NCBI GenBank assembly: GCA_900472785.1 | Contig: UCJH01000012.1 | Span: 1-64,000 of the forward strand | DNA from: Hyphomicrobiales bacterium | GTDB lineage: Bacteria > Pseudomonadota > Alphaproteobacteria > Rhizobiales > Rhizobiaceae | DNA: 64,000 nt | Direction of reading: 5' to 3' | Part shown: positions 6,276 through 15,648 of the stretch, piece after piece | How the letters are laid out: the number at the start of each line of letters is the position of its first letter | How positions within the stretch are numbered: the stretch's first letter is position 1 | Translations under genes and position numbers: made by a program | The notes under the pieces: model-generated | Databases searched by the model: none | What the model was told of the DNA's origin: nothing | Seen by the model: the letters and a program-made list of their open reading frames with translations, nothing else

Positions 6276-7991
6276 TTACAATCTGAGCGCCCAGATCGTC
6301 GCATTGACGACGCTGCCCGCCTGTGCCGTCAATCTTACGGAGCGGATGGGCTCGAACCCGTCGATGCGTTTCGTGCCGACCCATCGGCCGTCATCGGCAA
6401 ACACCTCGATCGAGCCGTAGTCGAGAAAAATCCGCAATCTTTTCGGCCGGGCGCCGCGCGCCACGTAATTAGGAGAAGGTCCTGCCCCATCCACGTCGTG
6501 GCGAATCCACAAACCATCCTCATTCAGAAAAACACCGAGCCTGACGCCGGGATGATCAAGCTCCAGGTCGAAATGCGCGCCACGCTCACTGAGCTCGAAC
6601 AGAATTTCAGCAGCGCCGCTTTCGAGCGTCACCACCTGCCCGGCCGCGAGACGCGTCCTGTCAAGCATATGGCCGCGCAGGCTTTCTGCCGGTCCGATCG
6701 GCGGCGTGCGCAACACCCCGCCCGACAACAGGATGCGGCGCGGCAGCGTCATGGCTGTCGGGAAGTCGATCGTTGGCCCGGCATCGGCCCAATTGGCCAG
6801 CCAACCGATGCCGACCGCCGTATCGCCATCCATGAAGGCCTGGAAGGCATAATTGTCGGTGCCGAAATCGAGCTCCTGCTCGTACTCCTTGACGAAGGTC
6901 CGGCCATCGAACCAGCCGACGGCGGCCATGGTCAGGTTTTTCCGCCGCGTCACGGGGTCTTCGCTGGTCATCAGGCCGAAGATCAGCACCCAGCGCGTCG
7001 CGGGATCGGTCGCCGGGCCGTCGAGTGGCAGCAGACAGGGGCATTCGGTCGCGGTGGTCTTGTAGCGTTTCTCGACCGAGAGCTTGCCGACATAGGTCCA
7101 GCCACCGGCTGCCGTATGGTCTTTCGTCTCGTAGAGCAGGATAACGCCGCCCTCGTCGCTCTGGCTGCCAAGCAACATCTTCCAGAGCCCGTCCGGCCCC
7201 TTGAAGACGTAGGGATCGCGGAAATCCAGGGTCAGGCCCTGGTTTTCCGGACGCTGCGGCAGGATCACATCCGCCTGCCCCGCCATGATGAGATCGCCGG
7301 ATGTCGCCGTCAGCTGTATCTGCTGTTCCGGCTGGCGGTCCTGCACCTGCTCGGTGAAAAAGACGCGAATGCCGGGACCATCGGGCAGAGGAATGGCAGA
7401 ACCGGAAAACGCCCCTCCGCGCTTGTCGGGCCGGGCCGTCAGGTCCTCGGAGGGGAACAGGAAGATCGGCAGATGCCGCCAGCGCAGGTAATCCGAGGAA
7501 ACCGCATGGCCCCAATGCATCGTGTTCCAGCGCAGTCCATGCGAATAATGCTGGTAGAACAGATGCGGACGCCCGCCGAAGCGCCCGAAACCATTGGGAT
7601 CGTTCATCCAGCCGAAGGGCGGGCGGAAATGATAGCCGCCGGACAAGGCCGGTGGCGCGTTGACCGGATTGGTGTGGATGACGGTAATGCCGGTTTCCAG
7701 CACGTCGGCCGGCGTGAACCAGTAGGCCACGGATACCGACGTTTCTGCGGTGTCGTAGCTCAATTCGATCGGTCCGCCGCCAAAAACGTGGAAGATGCGG
7801 AACTCGTTTTCCTCCGCATTGGTGACGAGCACCTCGCCGAACTTGCCGCGGGCGCTGGTGAAGGACAGGGAACCCTGCCGGTCCGCAGCCACGGCCTTCA
7901 GCCAGATATGCAGTGTCGCATTGACCGGGAGTTCGACCGGCAATGTACGGATTGTACCGGATGCTTCGAAGGTCGTTGTTTTCTGATCCAT
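6276..7991 (-). CDS. Cytoplasmic GH32 beta-fructosidase
   Basis: This 571-residue glycoside hydrolase family 32 protein contains the three catalytic segments: WMNDPNG with nucleophile D131, FRDP with transition-state residue D259, and ECP with acid/base E316. A 120-residue beta-rich N-terminal extension precedes the propeller domain, and a C-terminal beta-sandwich follows. No signal peptide is present, so it acts in the cytoplasm. The ATG at 7991 has GAGGT about 7 bases upstream; the longer frame from 8033 lacks such a site. It converges with mfpsA-mfppA, so hydrolysis of mannosylfructose or an imported fructoside is a reasonable inference. Sucrose, levan oligosaccharides and inulin oligosaccharides are equally compatible with the family. 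Confidence 0.85.
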   Translation of the reverse strand: MDQKTTTFEASGTIRTLPVELPVNATLHIWLKAVAADRQGSLSFTSARGKFGEVLVTNAEENEFRIFHVFGGGPIELSYDTAETSVSVAYWFTPADVLETGITVIHTNPVNAPPALSGGYHFRPPFGWMNDPNGFGRFGGRPHLFYQHYSHGLRWNTMHWGHAVSSDYLRWRHLPIFLFPSEDLTARPDKRGGAFSGSAIPLPDGPGIRVFFTEQVQDRQPEQQIQLTATSGDLIMAGQADVILPQRPENQGLTLDFRDPYVFKGPDGLWKMLLGSQSDEGGVILLYETKDHTAAGGWTYVGKLSVEKRYKTTATECPCLLPLDGPATDPATRWVLIFGLMTSEDPVTRRKNLTMAAVGWFDGRTFVKEYEQELDFGTDNYAFQAFMDGDTAVGIGWLANWADAGPTIDFPTAMTLPRRILLSGGVLRTPPIGPAESLRGHMLDRTRLAAGQVVTLESGAAEILFELSERGAHFDLELDHPGVRLGVFLNEDGLWIRHDVDGAGPSPNYVARGARPKRLRIFLDYGSIEVFADDGRWVGTKRIDGFEPIRSVRLTAQAGSVVNATIWALRL

Positions 7992-8114
7992 GTCGGTCAC
8001 CTCGTTCCATGGGGAAACGTCGCGCGGCCGCAAGTGGTTCGATTAAATGCTGCCTGCCGCCATCGAACCGTCGGAATGCATCATCGGCATGCGGTCCCCG
8101 GTTCAATCGTCTTC

Positions 8115-8138
8115 GGGGAGGGAAGTAACTCCCTCCCC
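8115..8138. repeat. Perfect GC-rich inverted repeat downstream of the flotillin gene
   Basis: GGGGAGGGA (8115-8123) and TCCCTCCCC (8130-8138) form a 9-bp perfect stem with a 6-base loop. It lies 78 bases past the flotillin stop and upstream of the GH32 start, both on the minus strand. No U tract follows on either strand, so it may stabilise the flotillin mRNA end or act as a weak terminator. Confidence 0.5.
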
Positions 8139-8215
8139 GATAATTTCAACGATCCAATGCCGACGAAAGCAAGTCTGCCGGAGAGCGGCGGGAATATCCC
8201 GTAGCCGCGTTTATC

Positions 8216-9886
8216 TCACGCCTTCTTTTCATCATCCTTCTTAGGGACGTCCAGACCGGCCATCAGCGAGCTGACGGCGTTGTCGCCATCTTCAAAGCCG
8301 GCCTCCTTCATCAGGCGGTCGAGGATCGGCTTGTTGGCCTGATAGGCCAGAAGCTGGCCGGCCAGTCCCTCGCCCATGCCGATACCGCCGCCGGATGCGC
8401 CACCGGAACCGCCGCGGCCGAGCATGCCGCCGGTGTCGAAGATGCGGATATCCGAGATCTTCTCGATCGGCTTGACGGCTTCGGCAAGGGCCGCCGGAAT
8501 GACACGGATACGCTCGCGGGTGATCTCGAACTCGATGATTGCCGCGCTCAGGCGGTTGCGTGCCTCGTTGAGCAGGGCCTCGCTTTCAGCTTCCGCCTTG
8601 CCGGTCTCCAGGATACCCTTCGCCTTGATGATCGCCGCATCGGCCTCGGCCATGGCCAGCGTCTTGATGGCATCGGCCTGGTCGATCGCCGCCTGCTTCT
8701 CGGCCTCGGCGCCGACGGTGACAGCCGTCGCTTCGGTTTCAGCCCGCTTGCGCGCGTCAATCACCGCGATCTGCTTTTCACGCTCGGCAATCTCGACGGC
8801 CTTGGCAGTATGGACCTTTTCTTCCGCGGCAATGGCGAGCGCCCGGGCGGCCTCGGCCTGTGCCTTGGCTTCCGATTCCTCGCGGCTCTTGTTGGCAACG
8901 GCGATCGCGCTTTCCTGCGAAACGATCTGCAGATCGCGCTGCGCTTCTGTGTCGCGCTGGCGAACCGCGCGGCTTGCATCGATGTTCGCGGTTTCACGCG
9001 CCTGCTTCGCGGTCGCTTCGCGCTCGGCAATCGCCTGTTCCGCGGTGATGCGCGCTTCCTCCTCGGCACGCTTCGCAGCCTGCTCCTGCTGCGCCGTTTC
9101 CGCACGGGTCGCAGCCGACTTGTTGGCGATGTCGCGTTCCTGGCTGAGTTCGGCCTCGCGCTTGGTCCGCTCGATGGTCAGCGACTGCTGTCTCGCCTCG
9201 AGGTCCTTCTGGGCGATCGCCACTTCGGTGTCGCGGACGATCTCGTTGCGCTCCTTCTTGCGGCCTTCGGTGATGCGGGTCAGGGCCGCCAGGCCGTGGG
9301 CGTCGAAGAAGTTATTGGCGTTGAAGTGCTTGATGTCCGTCTGGTCGAGGCGCGTCAGCGACACCGATTCCAGTTCCAGACCGTTCGATTGCAGGTCGGC
9401 ACCGACCGCTTCCTGCACGGCCTTGACGAAGTCCATGCGCTGTTCCTGCAGCGCATCGAGCGTCATCGTCGCTGCAACCGAACGCAGGCCGTCGACGAAT
9501 TTCGCCTCGATCAGTATCCGCAGTTGTTCCGCATCATTCGTCCGATTGCCGAGCGTCTGGGCCGCCAGGGCGATCGACGACGCGTCAGGCTTCACGCGAA
9601 CGTAGAATTCTGCGCCGATATCGACACGCATGCGGTCCTTGGTGATCAGCGCGTCGCCTTCCCCACGGCGGACTTCGAGACGCAGGGTCTTCAGGTTGAC
9701 GCGGGCGATCGAATGGAAGATCGGCAGGACGATCGAGCCGCCATCGAGCACGACCTTCTGTCCGCCAAGGCCGGTGCGCACATAGGCCTCGTCCCGGCTG
9801 GAGCGCGTATAAAGAGTTGCAAGAACAAAACCGATGGCAAAGAAAAGTACGACACCGATCGCGACAGGCCAAATGAGTTCAAACAT
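8216..9886 (-). CDS. yqiK: Flotillin-family membrane protein (YqiK type)
   Basis: This 556-residue flotillin/SPFH protein organises membrane microdomains. An N-terminal membrane segment (about 4-26) is followed by the SPFH domain (about 40-230). A long Ala/Glu/Lys-rich coiled coil spans about 230-470, and the C-terminus is glycine-rich (GGSGGASGGG) and ends in lysines. A GGAGC Shine-Dalgarno precedes the ATG. The gene is 2 bases after the YqiJ-like gene and behind PspA, an arrangement seen in phage-shock-type envelope stress systems. The expected role is membrane scaffolding at the cytoplasmic face together with the NfeD-like partner. Confidence 0.9.
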   Translation of the reverse strand: MFELIWPVAIGVVLFFAIGFVLATLYTRSSRDEAYVRTGLGGQKVVLDGGSIVLPIFHSIARVNLKTLRLEVRRGEGDALITKDRMRVDIGAEFYVRVKPDASSIALAAQTLGNRTNDAEQLRILIEAKFVDGLRSVAATMTLDALQEQRMDFVKAVQEAVGADLQSNGLELESVSLTRLDQTDIKHFNANNFFDAHGLAALTRITEGRKKERNEIVRDTEVAIAQKDLEARQQSLTIERTKREAELSQERDIANKSAATRAETAQQEQAAKRAEEEARITAEQAIAEREATAKQARETANIDASRAVRQRDTEAQRDLQIVSQESAIAVANKSREESEAKAQAEAARALAIAAEEKVHTAKAVEIAEREKQIAVIDARKRAETEATAVTVGAEAEKQAAIDQADAIKTLAMAEADAAIIKAKGILETGKAEAESEALLNEARNRLSAAIIEFEITRERIRVIPAALAEAVKPIEKISDIRIFDTGGMLGRGGSGGASGGGIGMGEGLAGQLLAYQANKPILDRLMKEAGFEDGDNAVSSLMAGLDVPKKDDEKKA

Positions 9887-9888
9887 GG

Positions 9889-10530
9889 TCAGTGCTCCGT
9901 TGTAGGGGTTTCCGCCGAGGCTTGAAGGTCCGGCGGGGCGACGATTGCAGTGAAAATATCCTTGGTGCGATCAACCAGCAGAACGATGGTGCGGACGGGA
10001 ATGGCAACCTCGCCCTTCGCAGCACGCGCACGCACCGTATGCCAGTTTCCATGCGTGTCCTTTATCTGCACCTGTCCGGGCAGACCCTGGTCGAGAGGAC
10101 CGACCGTCACCTGTCCCGTCCGGCCGACCAGATCGCTCAGGTCGACGGCATAGGTCTCGTCACGCGGCACGATGCGTGCGACGGCCCGGGTCGAGTGGCG
10201 GGTCAGCGGGATCGAGCAGATGACCGACAGCGTTGCCGCGATACTCGCCGGCAGCAGGCCGTAGGTATGGCTGGCGACCATTTGAATCAGCAAGCCGCAA
10301 ATCGCGAAGATGCCGAGAAACAGCATGACCAGAATCAGGATGGGCACGCCGCCGACATTGAACCAGGAAAAGAGCCAGGACAGCCCGTCATGGCTGTCGA
10401 ATGGATCGCCCAGCATGTCGCTGAACGAAAACCCGATCACCATGGCCATCACCTCGATGACGGTCAGCGCAACCAGGATCGCAGCGGCGATGAAAAAGGG
10501 CGCCGATTCAGGAGCGAGAAGCAGATTCAT
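9889..10530 (-). CDS. yqiJ: YqiJ-like (DUF1449, NfeD-related) membrane protein
   Basis: This 213-residue protein has three hydrophobic segments (about 10-32, 55-80 and 85-110) and a C-terminal OB-fold-like soluble domain containing the segment LVGRTGQVTVGP. This is the layout of YqiJ/NfeD partners of flotillins. I placed the start at 10530, which gives an N-terminus like E. coli YqiJ; an ATG five codons upstream is also possible, and neither has a strong Shine-Dalgarno. The start lies inside the 3' end of the PspA frame, so translation is coupled. With YqiK it should form a flotillin-NfeD membrane module. Confidence 0.85.
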   Translation of the reverse strand: MNLLLAPESAPFFIAAAILVALTVIEVMAMVIGFSFSDMLGDPFDSHDGLSWLFSWFNVGGVPILILVMLFLGIFAICGLLIQMVASHTYGLLPASIAATLSVICSIPLTRHSTRAVARIVPRDETYAVDLSDLVGRTGQVTVGPLDQGLPGQVQIKDTHGNWHTVRARAAKGEVAIPVRTIVLLVDRTKDIFTAIVAPPDLQASAETPTTEH

Positions 10531-11674
10531 CAGGGGCTTTTCCATCCGATTTCAAAAGAGCCAGTCTCGCTTCGATCGCCCGTTCGCGATGCAGCCGGTC
10601 GAGCTCGTCGAGCTCCACTATACCGCTTCGCTCGCCGGCCGGAACTCCCGTCACGCGCGATACCGCCGCACTGGCACGCGCTGATCGATCCGTCGGTTCG
10701 CGGCGCCGCGGCGCGGCCGCTTCCGTCTCCGGATAACGGTTCAGACTGCGTTTCAATTCGCCGAGCCGCTCTTCCGCCTCCCGACGGGCGGCGAGAACCG
10801 CCTGCAGCGCCTTCTGGCCTTCGTCGACATGGCTTCGCGCATCGTCAAGCGCCTTGTCCAGGGCGGCAATCTGGGACTCGAGATCGATCTGTCGGGCCAC
10901 ACCGGCCTTCGCAAGGTCGTCCCGGCCGGCAGAGATCGCAACCCGGACCTTCTCGTCCAGACCCTTGATATCCGCCATGATTTCACCGCGCCGGCTCTGG
11001 ATGCGATATTCCTGCGCCTGCGCCTTGCCAAGGTCGCCGCGCGCCTCGTCGGCAGCGGCGTCGATTTCGCGGATCGCCTGCTCGACCACGGCCACCTTGT
11101 TCACATCCTCCGCCTTGTCGATCGTGGCGTTGGCGATGCCGGCGATCAGACGGCCCATACGGGACAGAATTCCTTCGTTCATCACATTGTGCTCCTGTGC
11201 TCGTGGCGTGTTCGGCGTCACGCCGATATGGATCTCGTAGCGATCCGAGTAGGCAACCAGACTGGCCGGGAAAGCGCCTTCCCAACCTGCGGAATAGCCG
11301 GCGACATCGAAGCGGGCGCTGATCCGCCCACGAACAGTGGCGATCGTCAGCAGCGAGGGCGCCTTGATGGCAAACAGCTTTTCATCCAGCGGCAGCCGCG
11401 GCGATGTGTGAACCAGCCCGCCATGCCCGGCGAAATCCCTCAAACCCAGCGTGACCAGACGGGCGGGAAGGCCTGTCTGTTCGCGCACGCGCTCATAGGC
11501 CAGCTCGTGCAGGGCAACGAGATTGGCGCCGGCCTGCGGCGTTGCGACTTCCTGGAGGATGCGCATCATCTGCGCATAGGCGGCAAAAGTATCCGCCAAA
11601 GCCTGCTGGCCATAATCATCCAACGCCAACTCGTAGCGGAGATGGGAGGGATGAGGTGAGACATCGTTTCGCAT
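10508..11674 (-). CDS. pspA: TnpB-N-terminal-like domain fused in frame to PspA/IM30
   Basis: This open frame encodes a composite of about 388 residues. The last 224 residues (from 11182) are a complete PspA/IM30 protein, beginning MNEGILSRMGRLIAG and continuing as a long coiled coil, with the usual PspA length. The roughly 164 residues before it are not PspA. They contain LHELAYERVREQTGLPA, followed by a beta-rich part (PLDEKLFAIK, then TIATVRGRI), which resembles the N-terminal half of OrfB/TnpB transposon proteins up to just before the RuvC domain. No RuvC or zinc-ribbon residues are present. An AGGAG lies upstream of an internal GTG/ATG (11185/11182), so PspA alone could also be made. The outer start is uncertain: I used ATG 11674, and a GTG lies at 11692. 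PspA is firm; the TnpB-like reading is by eye. Confidence 0.75.
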   Translation of the reverse strand: MRNDVSPHPSHLRYELALDDYGQQALADTFAAYAQMMRILQEVATPQAGANLVALHELAYERVREQTGLPARLVTLGLRDFAGHGGLVHTSPRLPLDEKLFAIKAPSLLTIATVRGRISARFDVAGYSAGWEGAFPASLVAYSDRYEIHIGVTPNTPRAQEHNVMNEGILSRMGRLIAGIANATIDKAEDVNKVAVVEQAIREIDAAADEARGDLGKAQAQEYRIQSRRGEIMADIKGLDEKVRVAISAGRDDLAKAGVARQIDLESQIAALDKALDDARSHVDEGQKALQAVLAARREAEERLGELKRSLNRYPETEAAAPRRREPTDRSARASAAVSRVTGVPAGERSGIVELDELDRLHRERAIEARLALLKSDGKAPDESASRS

Positions 11675-11685
11675 ACTGGAAACAT

Positions 11686-11706
11686 AAAGCACTTACTTAG
11701 TGCTTT
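11686..11706. promoter_or_regulatory. 8-5-8 inverted repeat upstream of the pspA composite gene
   Basis: AAAGCACT (11686-11693) and AGTGCTTT (11699-11706) form a perfect palindrome with a 5-base spacer, 11 bases before the proposed ATG at 11674. Its size and symmetry suit a dimeric repressor or activator operator for the pspA-yqiJ-yqiK operon. No regulator gene lies beside it. Confidence 0.5.
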
Positions 11707-11810
11707 CAAGAGTCACGCGCAAGATTTCGAGCAGCGGCGCCCGTCGGCTGCACGCGTGGAACAGTCGTACGACTTTCGTTCCGGGCACACTATCGACCCG
11801 GACAGCTGGA

Positions 11811-13598
11811 TCAGTGATTGTGCCTCGGCGGCGTCTTTGCAATCTGGCGGAAATCCGAAGCGCCCTCGATGACAGCCCCGTTGGAGAGCTGCGTCACCGT
11901 TTTCCGGTAGAGCCGTTGCCACGGGGTCGCATCCGCCGGCACAGGCGGAATGCCCTCGCCCTTTCGCCGTTCGATCTCGGCGTGCTCGACCAGCATGTCG
12001 CAGAGCCCCTGGTTGAAATCGATGCGGATCACGTCGCCGGTCCGCACCCACGCGAGACCGCCCCCGGCGGCACTTTCCGGCGAGGCGTTGAGGATCGAGG
12101 GACTGTCGGCGGTGCCCGATTGCCGGCCGTCGCCGATCGTCGGCAGGCTGGTAATACCGCGCTTCAGGAGCGCATCCGGCGGCTGCATGTTGACGACCTC
12201 GGCAGAGCCCGGCCAGCCGAGCGGGCCCGCACCGCGAATGACGAGAATGGTGTTCTCGTCGATGCCCAGCGCGGGATCGTTGATCCGCCTGTGGTAATCC
12301 TCCGACCCGTCGAACACCACCGCCTTGCCTTCAAACACGCCTTCGCGTCCCGGTTCCCGCAGATAGCGCTGGCGAAATCCCTCGGACACGACACTCATCT
12401 TCATGATGGCGAAATCGAAAAGGTTTCCCTTGAGAACGAGGAAGCCGGCTTTCTCCCTCAGCGGTGCGGCATAAGGGAAAATGACCTCCCTGTCCGTTGC
12501 TTCGCGGCCGCTCAGATTGTCGCTGATGGTCTTGCCGGTAACGCTGCGACAGTCGCCGTCGATCTTTCCATTGGCCAGCAGCTCCCACATGATGGCCGGC
12601 ACGCCGCCGGCGCGGTGAAACCGTTCGCCGAGATAGGCACCGGCCGGCTGGACATTGGCCAGCAGCGGAATGTCGAAGCCATGGACCTGCCAGTCTGTCG
12701 GATTAAGCTCAACGCCGGCATGTTTGGCCATAGCCGCCAGGTGCGGCTGGGCATTGGTCGACCCGCCGATTGCGGAATTGACGGCAATGGCATTGAGAAA
12801 TGCCTGCCGGGTCAGGATATCGGACGGCTTGATATCCTCCAGCACGAGTTCGACGGCACGTCGGCCGGTGCGATAGGCCATCTGTCCGCGCTCGCGATAG
12901 GGACCGGGGATCGCCGCGCAGCCGGTCAGCGACATGCCGAGCGCTTCGGCAAGCGCGTTCATGGTCGATGCCGTACCCATCGTGTTGCAGTGGCCGACCG
13001 ATGGTGCGGAATCGAGGGCCGCCTGCAGGAACTCCTCCTCGTCGATCTCGCCCGCCGCCAGCTTTCGCCGCGAGCGCCAGATGACCGTGCCCGATCCTGC
13101 CAGCGTTCCCTCGTGCCAGCCGTCGAGCATCGGCCCGCCCGACAGCACGATCGCCGGGATATCGACAGTCGAGGCCGCCATCAGCGCCGAGGGCGTGGTC
13201 TTGTCGCAACCGGTCGTCAGCACGACACCATCGAGAGGATAGCCGTAGAGAATTTCGACCAGCCCGAGATAGGCAAGGTTGCGGTCGAGCGCCGCTGTCG
13301 GCCGCTTGCAGTTCTCGAACATCGGATGCGTCGGGAATTCGATCGGAATGCCGCCTGCGTCGCGGATGCCGTCGCGCACACGCTTGGCAAGCTCGATGTG
13401 GTGTCGGTTGCAGGGTGTCAGATCGCTGCCGCTCTGGGCGATGCCGATGATCGGCTTGCCGGATCGAAGTTCTTCCGGCGTGATGCCGTAGTTCATGAAT
13501 CGTTCAAGATAAAGTGCCGTCAGATCGATGTGATCGGGGTTGTCGAACCAGTCCTGCGAGCGCAGGCGGCGCGGCTGATTGCTGTCGTCGATCATCAT
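11811..13598 (-). CDS. IlvD/Edd-family sugar-acid dehydratase
   Basis: This 595-residue dehydratase belongs to the group of L-arabinonate/D-xylonate dehydratases and dihydroxy-acid dehydratase, which remove water from an aldonate or dihydroxy acid to give a 2-keto acid. The iron-sulfur ligand cysteines appear as C63 (TPCNRH), C131 (TTGCDK) and C204 (GHCNTMG). The ATG at 13598 follows GAGGT with a suitable gap; the frame upstream is non-coding. The gene is divergent from a Gfo/Idh/MocA oxidoreductase and a ThuA-like gene, which suits sugar-acid catabolism rather than branched-chain amino acid synthesis. The exact aldonate is not determinable. Confidence 0.85.
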   Translation of the reverse strand: MMIDDSNQPRRLRSQDWFDNPDHIDLTALYLERFMNYGITPEELRSGKPIIGIAQSGSDLTPCNRHHIELAKRVRDGIRDAGGIPIEFPTHPMFENCKRPTAALDRNLAYLGLVEILYGYPLDGVVLTTGCDKTTPSALMAASTVDIPAIVLSGGPMLDGWHEGTLAGSGTVIWRSRRKLAAGEIDEEEFLQAALDSAPSVGHCNTMGTASTMNALAEALGMSLTGCAAIPGPYRERGQMAYRTGRRAVELVLEDIKPSDILTRQAFLNAIAVNSAIGGSTNAQPHLAAMAKHAGVELNPTDWQVHGFDIPLLANVQPAGAYLGERFHRAGGVPAIMWELLANGKIDGDCRSVTGKTISDNLSGREATDREVIFPYAAPLREKAGFLVLKGNLFDFAIMKMSVVSEGFRQRYLREPGREGVFEGKAVVFDGSEDYHRRINDPALGIDENTILVIRGAGPLGWPGSAEVVNMQPPDALLKRGITSLPTIGDGRQSGTADSPSILNASPESAAGGGLAWVRTGDVIRIDFNQGLCDMLVEHAEIERRKGEGIPPVPADATPWQRLYRKTVTQLSNGAVIEGASDFRQIAKTPPRHNH

Positions 13599-13756
13599 AT
13601 TCAACCTCAAACAGCCCGTCTCAAGGGCAAGCCAATCGTGAGCCGACAATAGCGGCTCAGGGAGCACAGGCAAGATCACAGACGCGACGCGCGGATCGTG
13701 CTCACCTGCGGAAACAGAAGAATCACTGCGGTGAGATCCTACAGCAAGAGGGGGAA

Positions 13757-13843
13757 ATGTATGATGATTTACGTGCCTCTTTTCGATGGACTGCACCCGG
13801 CGCCAATGCCATCATGCCTTACGGGAGACGGCCCAGACTTTAA
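13757..13843 (+). CDS. Possible 28-residue leader or small protein
   Basis: A short frame (starts MYDDLRASF, ends GRRPRL) has a strong Shine-Dalgarno (AGAGGGGG) 6-7 bases before its ATG and stops 29 bases before the oxidoreductase start. It has no recognisable motif. It could be a leader peptide coupled to the oxidoreductase gene, or chance. The strong ribosome-binding site is the only support. Confidence 0.25.
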   Translation: MYDDLRASFRWTAPGANAIMPYGRRPRL

Positions 13844-13872
13844 GGTGGGCCAGCGAAAGCGCGAGGAAATCC

Positions 13873-14973
13873 ATGACGACAGTCGGCATCGGCATCATCG
13901 GATGCGGTAATATTTCAGGCGCGTATCTGAAAGCCATGGCCTCGTTTCCGATCCTCGACATCCGCGGCATCGCCGACCTCAACGGCGATCTGGCAACCGC
14001 CCGTGCCGCCGAATTCAACGTACCGGCCAGGAGCATCGCGCAGCTTCTTGCCGATCCGGACATCGAGATCATCGTCAACCTGACGGTTCCGAAAGCACAT
14101 GTGGCCGTCGCCCTGCAGGCGCTGGATGCGGGCAAACATACCTATTCGGAAAAGCCGCTGGGGATCAATTTCGCGGAAGGCAAGAAACTCGCGGATACCG
14201 CAGCGGCCAAGGGCCTGCGCATCGGGGCAGCTCCGGACACCTTTTTGGGCGGCGCTCACCAGACGGCTCGCGACCTGATCGACCAGGGCGTCATCGGCCA
14301 GCCGGTCGGCGGAACGGCGACCTTCATGTGCCCGGGCCACGAGCGCTGGCATCCCAATCCGGATTTCTACTATGAGGTCGGCGCCGGTCCTATGCTCGAC
14401 ATGGGTCCCTACTACATCACCGATCTCGTCAATCTCTTCGGGCCCGTTGCGCAGGTGGCCGGCTTCGCCATCACACCGCGGGCGGAACGCATTATCACCA
14501 GCGAGCCGCGCAACGGCCAGCGCATCCCGGTGCATATTCCGACCCATGTGGCCGGGATCATGGCTTTTACCAACGGCGCTGTCGTCCAGATCGGCATGAG
14601 CTTCGATGTTGCCGGGCACAAGCACGTCCCGCTGGAAGTCTACGGCACCGAAGGCACGCTGATCGTGCCGGACCCCAACAATTTCGGCGGCGAGGTGCAA
14701 CTCCTGAGAAAAGGAAGAGACTTCGAGGCGCAGGAAACGACGCAGCCCTATGCCGATGGAAATTACCGGTCGATCGGCGTGGCCGATTTGGCGCATGCGA
14801 TCCGCGCAGACCGCCCACACCGGGCGAACGGCAGTCTTGCCCTTCATGTTCTGGAGGTCATGGAAGCCTTCCAGACGGCGGCCGATACCGGCCGGACAGT
14901 CACGATCACCACCGCCACGGAACGGCCTGCCGCCCTGTCCACCTCGCTCGTCGATGGGCAGCTGGCGCGATGA
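13873..14973 (+). CDS. Gfo/Idh/MocA-family oxidoreductase
   Basis: This 366-residue NAD(P)-dependent sugar or inositol dehydrogenase has an N-terminal Rossmann motif (GIIGCGNISG) and the family signature EKPLGI near residue 95. A C-terminal substrate-binding domain follows. The ATG at 13873 has GAGGAAA a few bases upstream. It is followed after 33 bases by the ThuA-like gene, a pairing common in rhizobial disaccharide and keto-sugar pathways. It is divergent from the sugar-acid dehydratase. Oxidation of a sugar or sugar derivative is inferred; the substrate is unknown. Confidence 0.85.
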   Translation: MTTVGIGIIGCGNISGAYLKAMASFPILDIRGIADLNGDLATARAAEFNVPARSIAQLLADPDIEIIVNLTVPKAHVAVALQALDAGKHTYSEKPLGINFAEGKKLADTAAAKGLRIGAAPDTFLGGAHQTARDLIDQGVIGQPVGGTATFMCPGHERWHPNPDFYYEVGAGPMLDMGPYYITDLVNLFGPVAQVAGFAITPRAERIITSEPRNGQRIPVHIPTHVAGIMAFTNGAVVQIGMSFDVAGHKHVPLEVYGTEGTLIVPDPNNFGGEVQLLRKGRDFEAQETTQPYADGNYRSIGVADLAHAIRADRPHRANGSLALHVLEVMEAFQTAADTGRTVTITTATERPAALSTSLVDGQLAR

Positions 14974-15006
14974 GGCCGGCTCACACAACATTCAGGAGGA
15001 GAGACC

Positions 15007-15648
15007 ATGCGTGAAGCACTGATCGTCTGGGGCGGATGGAGCGGCCACGAGCCGGAGGAATGCGCCGCCGTCATCAAGGGCATATTGGAAGAGGATGGTT
15101 TCAAGGTGAATGTCGAGCGCAGCACCGAGGCGTTCGCCGACCCTTCCGTGCACGATCTCTCGCTGGTGGTACCGATCGTCACCATGTCCAAGATCGAGAA
15201 GGAGGAGATCAGGAACCTCGCCGCCGCCATCGAGAACGGCGTCGGCATTGCCGGCTATCACGGCGGCGCCGGCGACAGTTTCCGCGATTGCGTCGACTAC
15301 CAGTTCATCATCGGCGGCCAATGGGTGGCCCATCCCGGCAATATCATCGACTACCGGGTCACCATCACCCGGCCGGAGGATCCGGTGATGCAGGGCATTG
15401 CCGATTTCCCTTATACATCCGAGCAATACTACATGCACGTCGATCCTTCCAATGAGGTGCTGGCGACGACGACCTTTACCGGGGACCATGCCGCCTGGAT
15501 CGACGGCGTCGTCATGCCCGTCGTCTGGAAACGCAAATATGGAAAGGGCCGCGTCTTTTATTCCTCGCTCGGCCATCAGGCGAAGGAATTCGACGTGCCG
15601 GAGATGAGGACGATCTTCCGCCGTGGCGCGAACTGGGCGGCGCGATGA
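15007..15648 (+). CDS. ThuA-like domain protein
   Basis: This 213-residue protein has the ThuA fold, a glutamine-amidotransferase-like domain first named from the trehalose utilisation genes of Sinorhizobium. Visible family segments are VWGGWSGHEPEE at the start, GYHGGAGDSFR near 91-101 and WKRKYGKGRVFYSSLGH near the end. A GGAGGAG Shine-Dalgarno precedes the ATG. It probably forms an operon with the upstream oxidoreductase and would then act on the same oxidised or keto-sugar intermediate. ThuA biochemistry is poorly known. Confidence 0.85.
   Translation: MREALIVWGGWSGHEPEECAAVIKGILEEDGFKVNVERSTEAFADPSVHDLSLVVPIVTMSKIEKEEIRNLAAAIENGVGIAGYHGGAGDSFRDCVDYQFIIGGQWVAHPGNIIDYRVTITRPEDPVMQGIADFPYTSEQYYMHVDPSNEVLATTTFTGDHAAWIDGVVMPVVWKRKYGKGRVFYSSLGHQAKEFDVPEMRTIFRRGANWAAR

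Follow-up and report, generated by a model that had tools for sequence, protein, structure and literature searches.

A TnpB-derived lobe fused to PspA in a flotillin operon may serve as an RNA-independent, autoregulatory DNA-binding domain

The 64,000-nucleotide stretch of Hyphomicrobiales DNA that we analysed (the window) encodes, in a single open reading frame, the part of a TnpB protein that precedes its RuvC nuclease domain joined to the membrane-stress protein PspA, and the frame is followed by the genes of YqiJ and of the flotillin YqiK (Table 1). Our computations recovered the TnpB homology, an old and conserved fusion, the operon, a translation start signal at the head of PspA, and an upstream palindrome whose occurrence tracks the lobe. 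The internal start and the palindrome, both absent from an earlier note on this DNA, suggest a mechanism. We favour, with modest confidence, the reading that the motif-reading lobe of TnpB became an RNA-independent DNA-binding domain by which a membrane-stress operon would regulate itself; DNA binding, the repression exerted by it, the sequestration that would relieve it, and a leaderless long form are what we infer from these features. The palindrome that accompanies the lobe lends some indirect support to the idea, put forward in the earlier note, of a domesticated nucleic-acid-binding module tied to envelope stress.

Table 1. Coordinates of the fusion gene, its putative signals and its neighbours in the window.
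Feature	Position	Strand	Basis or remark
Putative promoter CTTGAA-N16-TTTATGT, overlapping the inverted repeat	11682..11710	-	RpoH1 likeness; -10 match partial
Inverted repeat AAAGCAC-TAAGTAA-GTGCTTT (proposed operator; 11 nt separate it from the ATG of the long form)	11686..11706	-	recurrence with the lobe
Long form, TnpB WED-REC lobe plus PspA, 388 aa (ATG at 11674, stop at 10508)	10508..11674	-	uninterrupted ORF; conserved family
TnpB-like WED-REC lobe, residues ~9-153	11216..11650	-	
Internal Shine-Dalgarno AGGAG, 9 nt ahead of the PspA ATG	11192..11196	-	conserved Shine-Dalgarno in fusion loci
PspA part, 224 aa, residues 165-388 (internal ATG 11180-11182)	10508..11182	-	PF04012 5e-17; conserved internal Met and Shine-Dalgarno; unfused orthologues begin at the equivalent Met
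yqiJ, membrane protein with OB fold, start overlapping the pspA end	9889..10545	-	PF21001 2.4e-17, PF07290 4e-10
yqiK, flotillin with SPFH domain	8216..9886	-	PF15975 2.7e-28, PF01145 3.6e-17
GH32 family hydrolase	6276-8033		sugar-metabolism neighbourhood
IlvD/Edd dehydratase	11811-13796		sugar-metabolism neighbourhood
Gfo/Idh/MocA oxidoreductase	13786-14973		sugar-metabolism neighbourhood
ThuA protein	15007-15648		sugar-metabolism neighbourhood

The 388 codons of the fusion form one open frame without interruption, which bears out the in-frame joining of an N-terminal domain to PspA described in the earlier note, and the sequence motifs quoted there lie at the places given. Its description of the PspA part as complete held for the length but not for the Pfam profile, of which only positions 1-133 of 220 were matched (PspA_IM30, residues 168-302). 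The helical domain of PspA is predicted to form a long helical hairpin (mean pLDDT 74.3 in the model), and this PspA is the sole PF04012 match in the host genome at an E value of 0.001.

Single-sequence searches with residues 1-164 returned one match, to the NCBIfam transposase N-terminal domain TIGR01765 (E 0.19), with no match in Pfam or PHROG and nothing usable among PDB sequences. When 30 members of the family were scanned, TIGR01765 was matched by 8 of them (best 0.0012) and Pfam HTH_OrfB_IS605 by 4 (best 0.11), in both cases beside chance families such as TIGR01486 (8/30). A profile of 30 fusion N-domains (A2) reached a genuine TnpA-linked TnpB at 1e-8, in a match that stops about 10 residues short of the RuvC motif. 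In the reverse direction, a profile of pre-RuvC regions from 10 of 14 TnpBs (the other 4 had no match to the RuvC motif used) matched all 37 fusion N-domains at 28-62 bits, with reversed and shuffled controls at 1.1 bits or less, and hhalign gave a single pair a probability of 99.65 and an E value of 4.4e-24. Foldseek comparison of the predicted N-domain fold against the PDB placed TnpB, Cas12, TranC or Fanzor structures in all of the top 14 positions (best E 0.0031, nothing at E ≤ 0.001, TM-scores by query 0.25-0.58), and among the matches listed all 50 VIA rows belonged to the TnpB/Cas12/Fanzor superfamily. Profiles A2 and A3 found no match among PDB sequences at E values up to 10; they do not score ISDra2-type TnpBs, so that the relationship is traced through a single TnpB subfamily and through the fold. 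The nearest TnpB among those examined comes from another alphaproteobacterium, Rhodovastum atsumiense (L100, 66 bits).

The profiles in both directions with their controls and the blind fold search of the PDB agree, and they confirm residues ~9-153 as a TnpB-like pre-RuvC (WED and REC) lobe. The proposal that a TnpB pre-RuvC module had its nuclease replaced by PspA within a flotillin operon therefore withstood comparison with TnpB profiles and structures, by significant profile matches as well as by profile-profile and fold matches. As in IS200/IS605 TnpB and Cas12f, the domain order is a first strand, inserted REC helices and a WED barrel, with significant profile similarity and a like fold. 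Unlike these proteins, the fusion is without RuvC, TNB/zinc ribbon and TnpA, carries PspA instead, has a shortened basic stretch from the last REC helix to the WED barrel, and shows three REC helices in its model compared with four reported for ISDra2. No RuvC or TNB family matched the 388-residue protein at E values up to 1, and the principal genes from 6276 to 15648 were assigned to families other than TnpA. A match in L052 (E 0.0042) was an ABC transporter and was dismissed as chance. No clear boundary emerged when transposon ends common to L058 and L093 were sought as a way of reading a TAM.

Within Alphaproteobacteria the fusion forms an old family that evolves under purifying selection. 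It was present in 14 of 297 genomes of the host's family, at 31 loci in named genomes (a few identical to sites of the family search), and in 6/385 class-level and 9/398 phylum-level genomes, including three families outside the order; in each of the 45 loci from the searches of the family and of named genomes, lobe and PspA share one frame. All 11 plasmid records with the lobe had a PspA of the same kind adjoining, and the plasmid proteins are annotated as 'PspA/IM30 family protein' (10/11) or 'hypothetical protein' (1/11). The yqiJ gene follows the fusion in 59/59 loci (53/53 by tblastn and, as an OB-fold protein, 6/6 annotated plasmid loci), and yqiK was found in 31/31 long genome loci and 6/6 plasmid loci, the short loci L048-L051 stopping at or shortly after yqiJ. 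Over 18 loci the widely conserved genes were the fusion, yqiJ and yqiK, and none of the sugar-metabolism neighbours was among the genes recurring in at least 3 of the 18. In 14 close pairs of our choosing, dN/dS lay between 0.041 and 0.188 for the lobe and between 0.040 and 0.147 for PspA, and in 12 of them the lobe evolved faster than PspA; the two-domain architecture described in the earlier note is thus shared by relatives, with the lobe under purifying selection in every chosen pair.

The prospect, raised in the same note, that all close relatives might lack the extension was not borne out, since it was present in the 59 loci examined. At least three family genomes (L136-L138, among 9 PspA places fetched) carry a PspA-YqiJ-YqiK operon without the lobe, in which PspA begins at the equivalent of the internal ATG; with nine places fetched, unfused operons may outnumber these three and a further one, L143. 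PspA occurs in 62 of the 297 family genomes and the fusion in 14, so most PspAs in the family are ordinary. In a PspA tree with unsure roots and several long branches, of which only this sister pair was used, unfused L136 was sister to fused L041 (support 100/99), and the lobe was for that reason probably lost in L136. The unfused operons indicate that the lobe is conserved yet dispensable in some lineages. In family genome G065, a 182-aa gene without a Pfam match (L143:2602-3150, minus strand) overlaps the PspA start of a PspA-YqiJ-YqiK operon; it occupies the place of the TnpB lobe, or of the CesT/Tir-like protein of published operons, and the slot before PspA therefore seems to accept different partners.

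The frame of the fusion appears to contain a second start. Among 53 fusion loci, which are related and hence not independent, the conserved Met at the PspA junction had, at a suitable spacing upstream, a match to AAGGAGGT of 5 nt or more in 45 and of 4 nt or more in 53, the Met with the best Shine-Dalgarno being picked among the junction candidates and the control treated alike. Elsewhere in these genes, internal Met codons had a Shine-Dalgarno of at least 5 nt in 4/200 cases and all codon positions in 2.9%, and synonymous-codon resampling (1000 trials) gave at least 5 nt in a mean of 18.8 and a maximum of 29 of the 53 loci. These counts, like those of the upstream repeat given below, omit the duplicates L001, L004, L005 and L046, the second own-genome locus L059, and the non-fusions L052 and L058. 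The junction is a flexible linker whose amino acids diverge between lineages while the ribosome site is kept. No Shine-Dalgarno of 4 nt or more preceded the long start in 44/44 loci examined (the start is undefined in 15 of the 59). An internal start with a Shine-Dalgarno and a long start without one make two products probable. Judged from these signals, plain PspA is probably made from the internal start, the long form being the second product and perhaps translated from a leaderless mRNA.

Upstream of the long start, a repeat of the same build as the one proposed here as an operator (at least 5 of 7 pairs, within 130 nt) was present in 58/59 fusion loci, and one with at least 6 of 7 pairs in 56/59; shuffled upstream regions passed the looser rule in 90/2950 cases and the stricter one in 9/2950. 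Only L012 failed the looser rule, its best repeat differing in the outer bases, and the plasmid loci, which were fetched after the motif had been defined, carried the repeat in 6/6. It ends 10-12 nt ahead of the reference point in 40 of the 59 loci, the remainder being those whose reference point is an uncertain start codon or is placed elsewhere. At one mismatch or less, AAAGYACN7GTRCTTT has one site in the host genome (5.38 Mb) and the backward control pattern three. The exact repeat was found in 12 of 297 family genomes, namely 11 of the 14 with the fusion versus 1 of the 283 without it (Fisher 1.3e-16, shared ancestry uncorrected), and each of the 11 has one copy, just upstream of the fusion; the fusion genomes missed by the exact form (L008, L012 and L014) have variant arms. 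In L014 (AAATCAC) and L057 (AAAACAC) the two half-sites carry matching changes, and in L048-L050 the changes nearly match.

The repeat was not found in 4/4 related operons without the lobe (L136-L138 and L143). That other genomes keep the operon without lobe and repeat is a point against the proposed mechanism, and because lobe and repeat are co-inherited, their tracking is partly shared ancestry. Nevertheless, a site that occurs once per genome and is nearly confined to the genomes of one domain would most simply be read by that domain. Two further observations concern the repeat. In L014, upstream of 1471, apparently two successive AAATCAC/GTGATT-type repeats precede the fusion, and L014 and L012 have the most divergent lobes. 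The only non-fusion family genome with the exact repeat, of 1.4 Mb, carries it at G076:C1:5441-5463 (L148, L159).

The putative promoter that overlaps the repeat resembles the RpoH1 consensus CTTGAA-N15-16-CCTATAT given in the available text of PMC4843759, and PMC4167512 reports a similar motif for R. etli. CTTGA was found at or just before the left arm of the repeat in 49/59 loci. With the -10 element inside the repeat, transcription would start near the ATG, so that the long form would be leaderless and the repeat untranscribed. Such a start would argue against an RNA hairpin in a 5' leader, and a dead transposon end would not persist across orders; we accordingly regard as improbable the view that the repeat is a hairpin or a transposon-end relic rather than a protein operator, even though 7-bp arms with a 7-nt loop would suit a hairpin and hairpins do lie upstream of tnpB in IS200/IS605 elements (L095, L100 and L103). 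The 21 mismatched positions within the 59 repeats comprise 10 C.A, which would break an RNA pair (mostly in close relatives), 8 that are compatible with G.U pairs in RNA, and 3 others, a balance that makes the mismatch argument against an RNA hairpin weak.

Stable binding by TnpB normally requires RuvC and RNA. The net charge of the N-domain was -6 to +5 in 37 fusion sequences. Of 15 bacterial TnpB lobes, 14 had charges between +8 and +23 and the remaining one, that of the closest TnpB, L100, had +1; three haloarchaeal TnpB lobes had -11 to -14. A near-neutral or acidic lobe may have lost part of its nucleic-acid surface, and it is conceivable, although rather unlikely in our judgement, that the lobe no longer binds nucleic acid and now serves PspA as an adaptor for protein interactions, in the slot of a CesT/Tir-like protein, the palindrome being read by an unlinked transcription factor. 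Operons of PspA, YqiJ and a band-7 flotillin are described in the available text of PMC11237479, and the fusion operons resemble them in holding these three together (31/31 long loci and 6/6 plasmid loci) but differ in that the published ones carry a CesT/Tir-like partner gene; this precedent, like the 182-aa gene that precedes PspA in L143, would fit an adaptor. TnpB, OrfB, Cas12 and transposase have no occurrence in the main text of that paper. The best 14 Foldseek matches of the N-domain included no CesT/Tir structure, an absence from a list that excludes nothing by itself.

Several observations speak against an adaptor. The repeat is single per genome and nearly limited to genomes with the lobe, and the sister operons L041 (fused) and L136 (unfused) differ in lobe and repeat alike. 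Frames overlapping the operon aside, no neighbour gene was present in more than 3 of 18 loci, and hence no conserved linked regulator was seen in flanks of 3-5 kb, a survey that is blind to regulators farther away or unlinked. Unlinked HxlR regulators were considered as readers of the repeat, and none of the host's five HxlR loci has a similar half-site, although other unlinked factors could fill this role.

Residue 72 lies in the third helix, which in a visual alignment corresponds to the motif-reading helix of ISDra2; it is Arg in nearly all fusions and Gln in 4 loci of 3 genera, which have AAAGGA- or AAAGTA-type repeats. Since R72 is also kept with AAATCAC, AAAACAC and AAAGTAC repeats, the link between R72Q and the half-site is at most a hint. 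The fusions outside the order (L048-L051), which combine altered half-sites with R72Q, form a natural set for comparing DNA specificity.

We give very little credence to the reading that the lobe continues to operate with a guide-like RNA, as a TldR-like regulator that is guided by RNA or binds it. Such a reading would accord with the TnpB ancestry of the lobe and with ISDra2 TnpB, in which, according to the available text of PMC10097598, the guide-RNA scaffold is held by RuvC with WED, the latter contacting part of it. The fusion is missing RuvC, which forms the other half of the surface that binds RNA, no Rfam match was found in 8000-12400 at E values up to 1 (Rfam is without some omegaRNAs), and at its 3' end, where a tnpB gene encodes its RNA, the fusion gene has PspA coding sequence overlapping yqiJ. 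With RuvC gone and no RNA family found in that interval, the hint of RNA-guided regulation in the earlier note was not sustained. TldR proteins retain the full TnpB body and are RNA-guided. The fusion is like these nuclease-dead TnpB regulators (PMC13418256) in being a TnpB relative turned presumed regulator, and unlike them in that it retains the lobe only, has no RuvC-like region, and would have a fixed palindrome in place of a guide.

In TnpB the WED-REC lobe recognises a short target-adjacent motif in double-stranded DNA. In the autoregulatory reading that we prefer, the lobe, without guide RNA or RuvC, would bind the palindrome over its own promoter, the DNA-bound form being a dimer or oligomer held by PspA, and the operon would be repressed. 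Envelope damage would draw PspA to the membrane and to the flotillin patch of YqiK and YqiJ, taking the lobe off the DNA and inducing the operon. The internal start would supply plain PspA, the working polymer subunit at the membrane, while the long form, mixed into PspA polymers, would be their sensor and repressor subunit. We rate as about an even chance the full construction, in which the lobe, as a stand-alone and sequence-specific DNA-binding domain independent of RNA, is welded to an ESCRT-III-like membrane-stress polymer, one reading frame has two starts (the long form probably leaderless, the short one led by a Shine-Dalgarno), and the repair polymer itself is the repressor. The nearest parallel in logic would be a repressor sequestered at the membrane, PspA being the sensor in its own right rather than acting via PspF. 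In Escherichia coli, PspA links envelope damage to transcription by a change of partner, inhibiting the separate activator PspF. The fusion would be like PspA-PspF and like membrane-sequestered repressors in that PspA couples envelope damage to transcription, and unlike PspA-PspF in that PspA would carry the DNA-reading domain within its own chain.

A search by titles and the starts of abstracts, with bioRxiv and most subscription journals outside its scope, found no description of TnpB with PspA or flotillin, and in the available text of PMC9239133 the word 'fused' occurs twice, not on a TnpB-PspA protein, with zero occurrences of 'fusion', 'transposase' and 'Rhizobi'. Within the literature so covered, an old, selected fusion of a TnpB lobe with PspA is an undescribed exaptation even if DNA binding should fail. 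If the mechanism is true, it would represent a new origin of a transcription-factor DNA-binding domain, namely a motif-reading lobe of the TnpB/Cas12 ancestor that works without RNA or nuclease, and a natural version of the Cas12 lobe, of about 160 residues and reading a fixed DNA word, would be of use to protein engineering. For the bacteria that carry it, the fusion would suggest how a PspA joined to a DNA-reading lobe could directly control its own genes.
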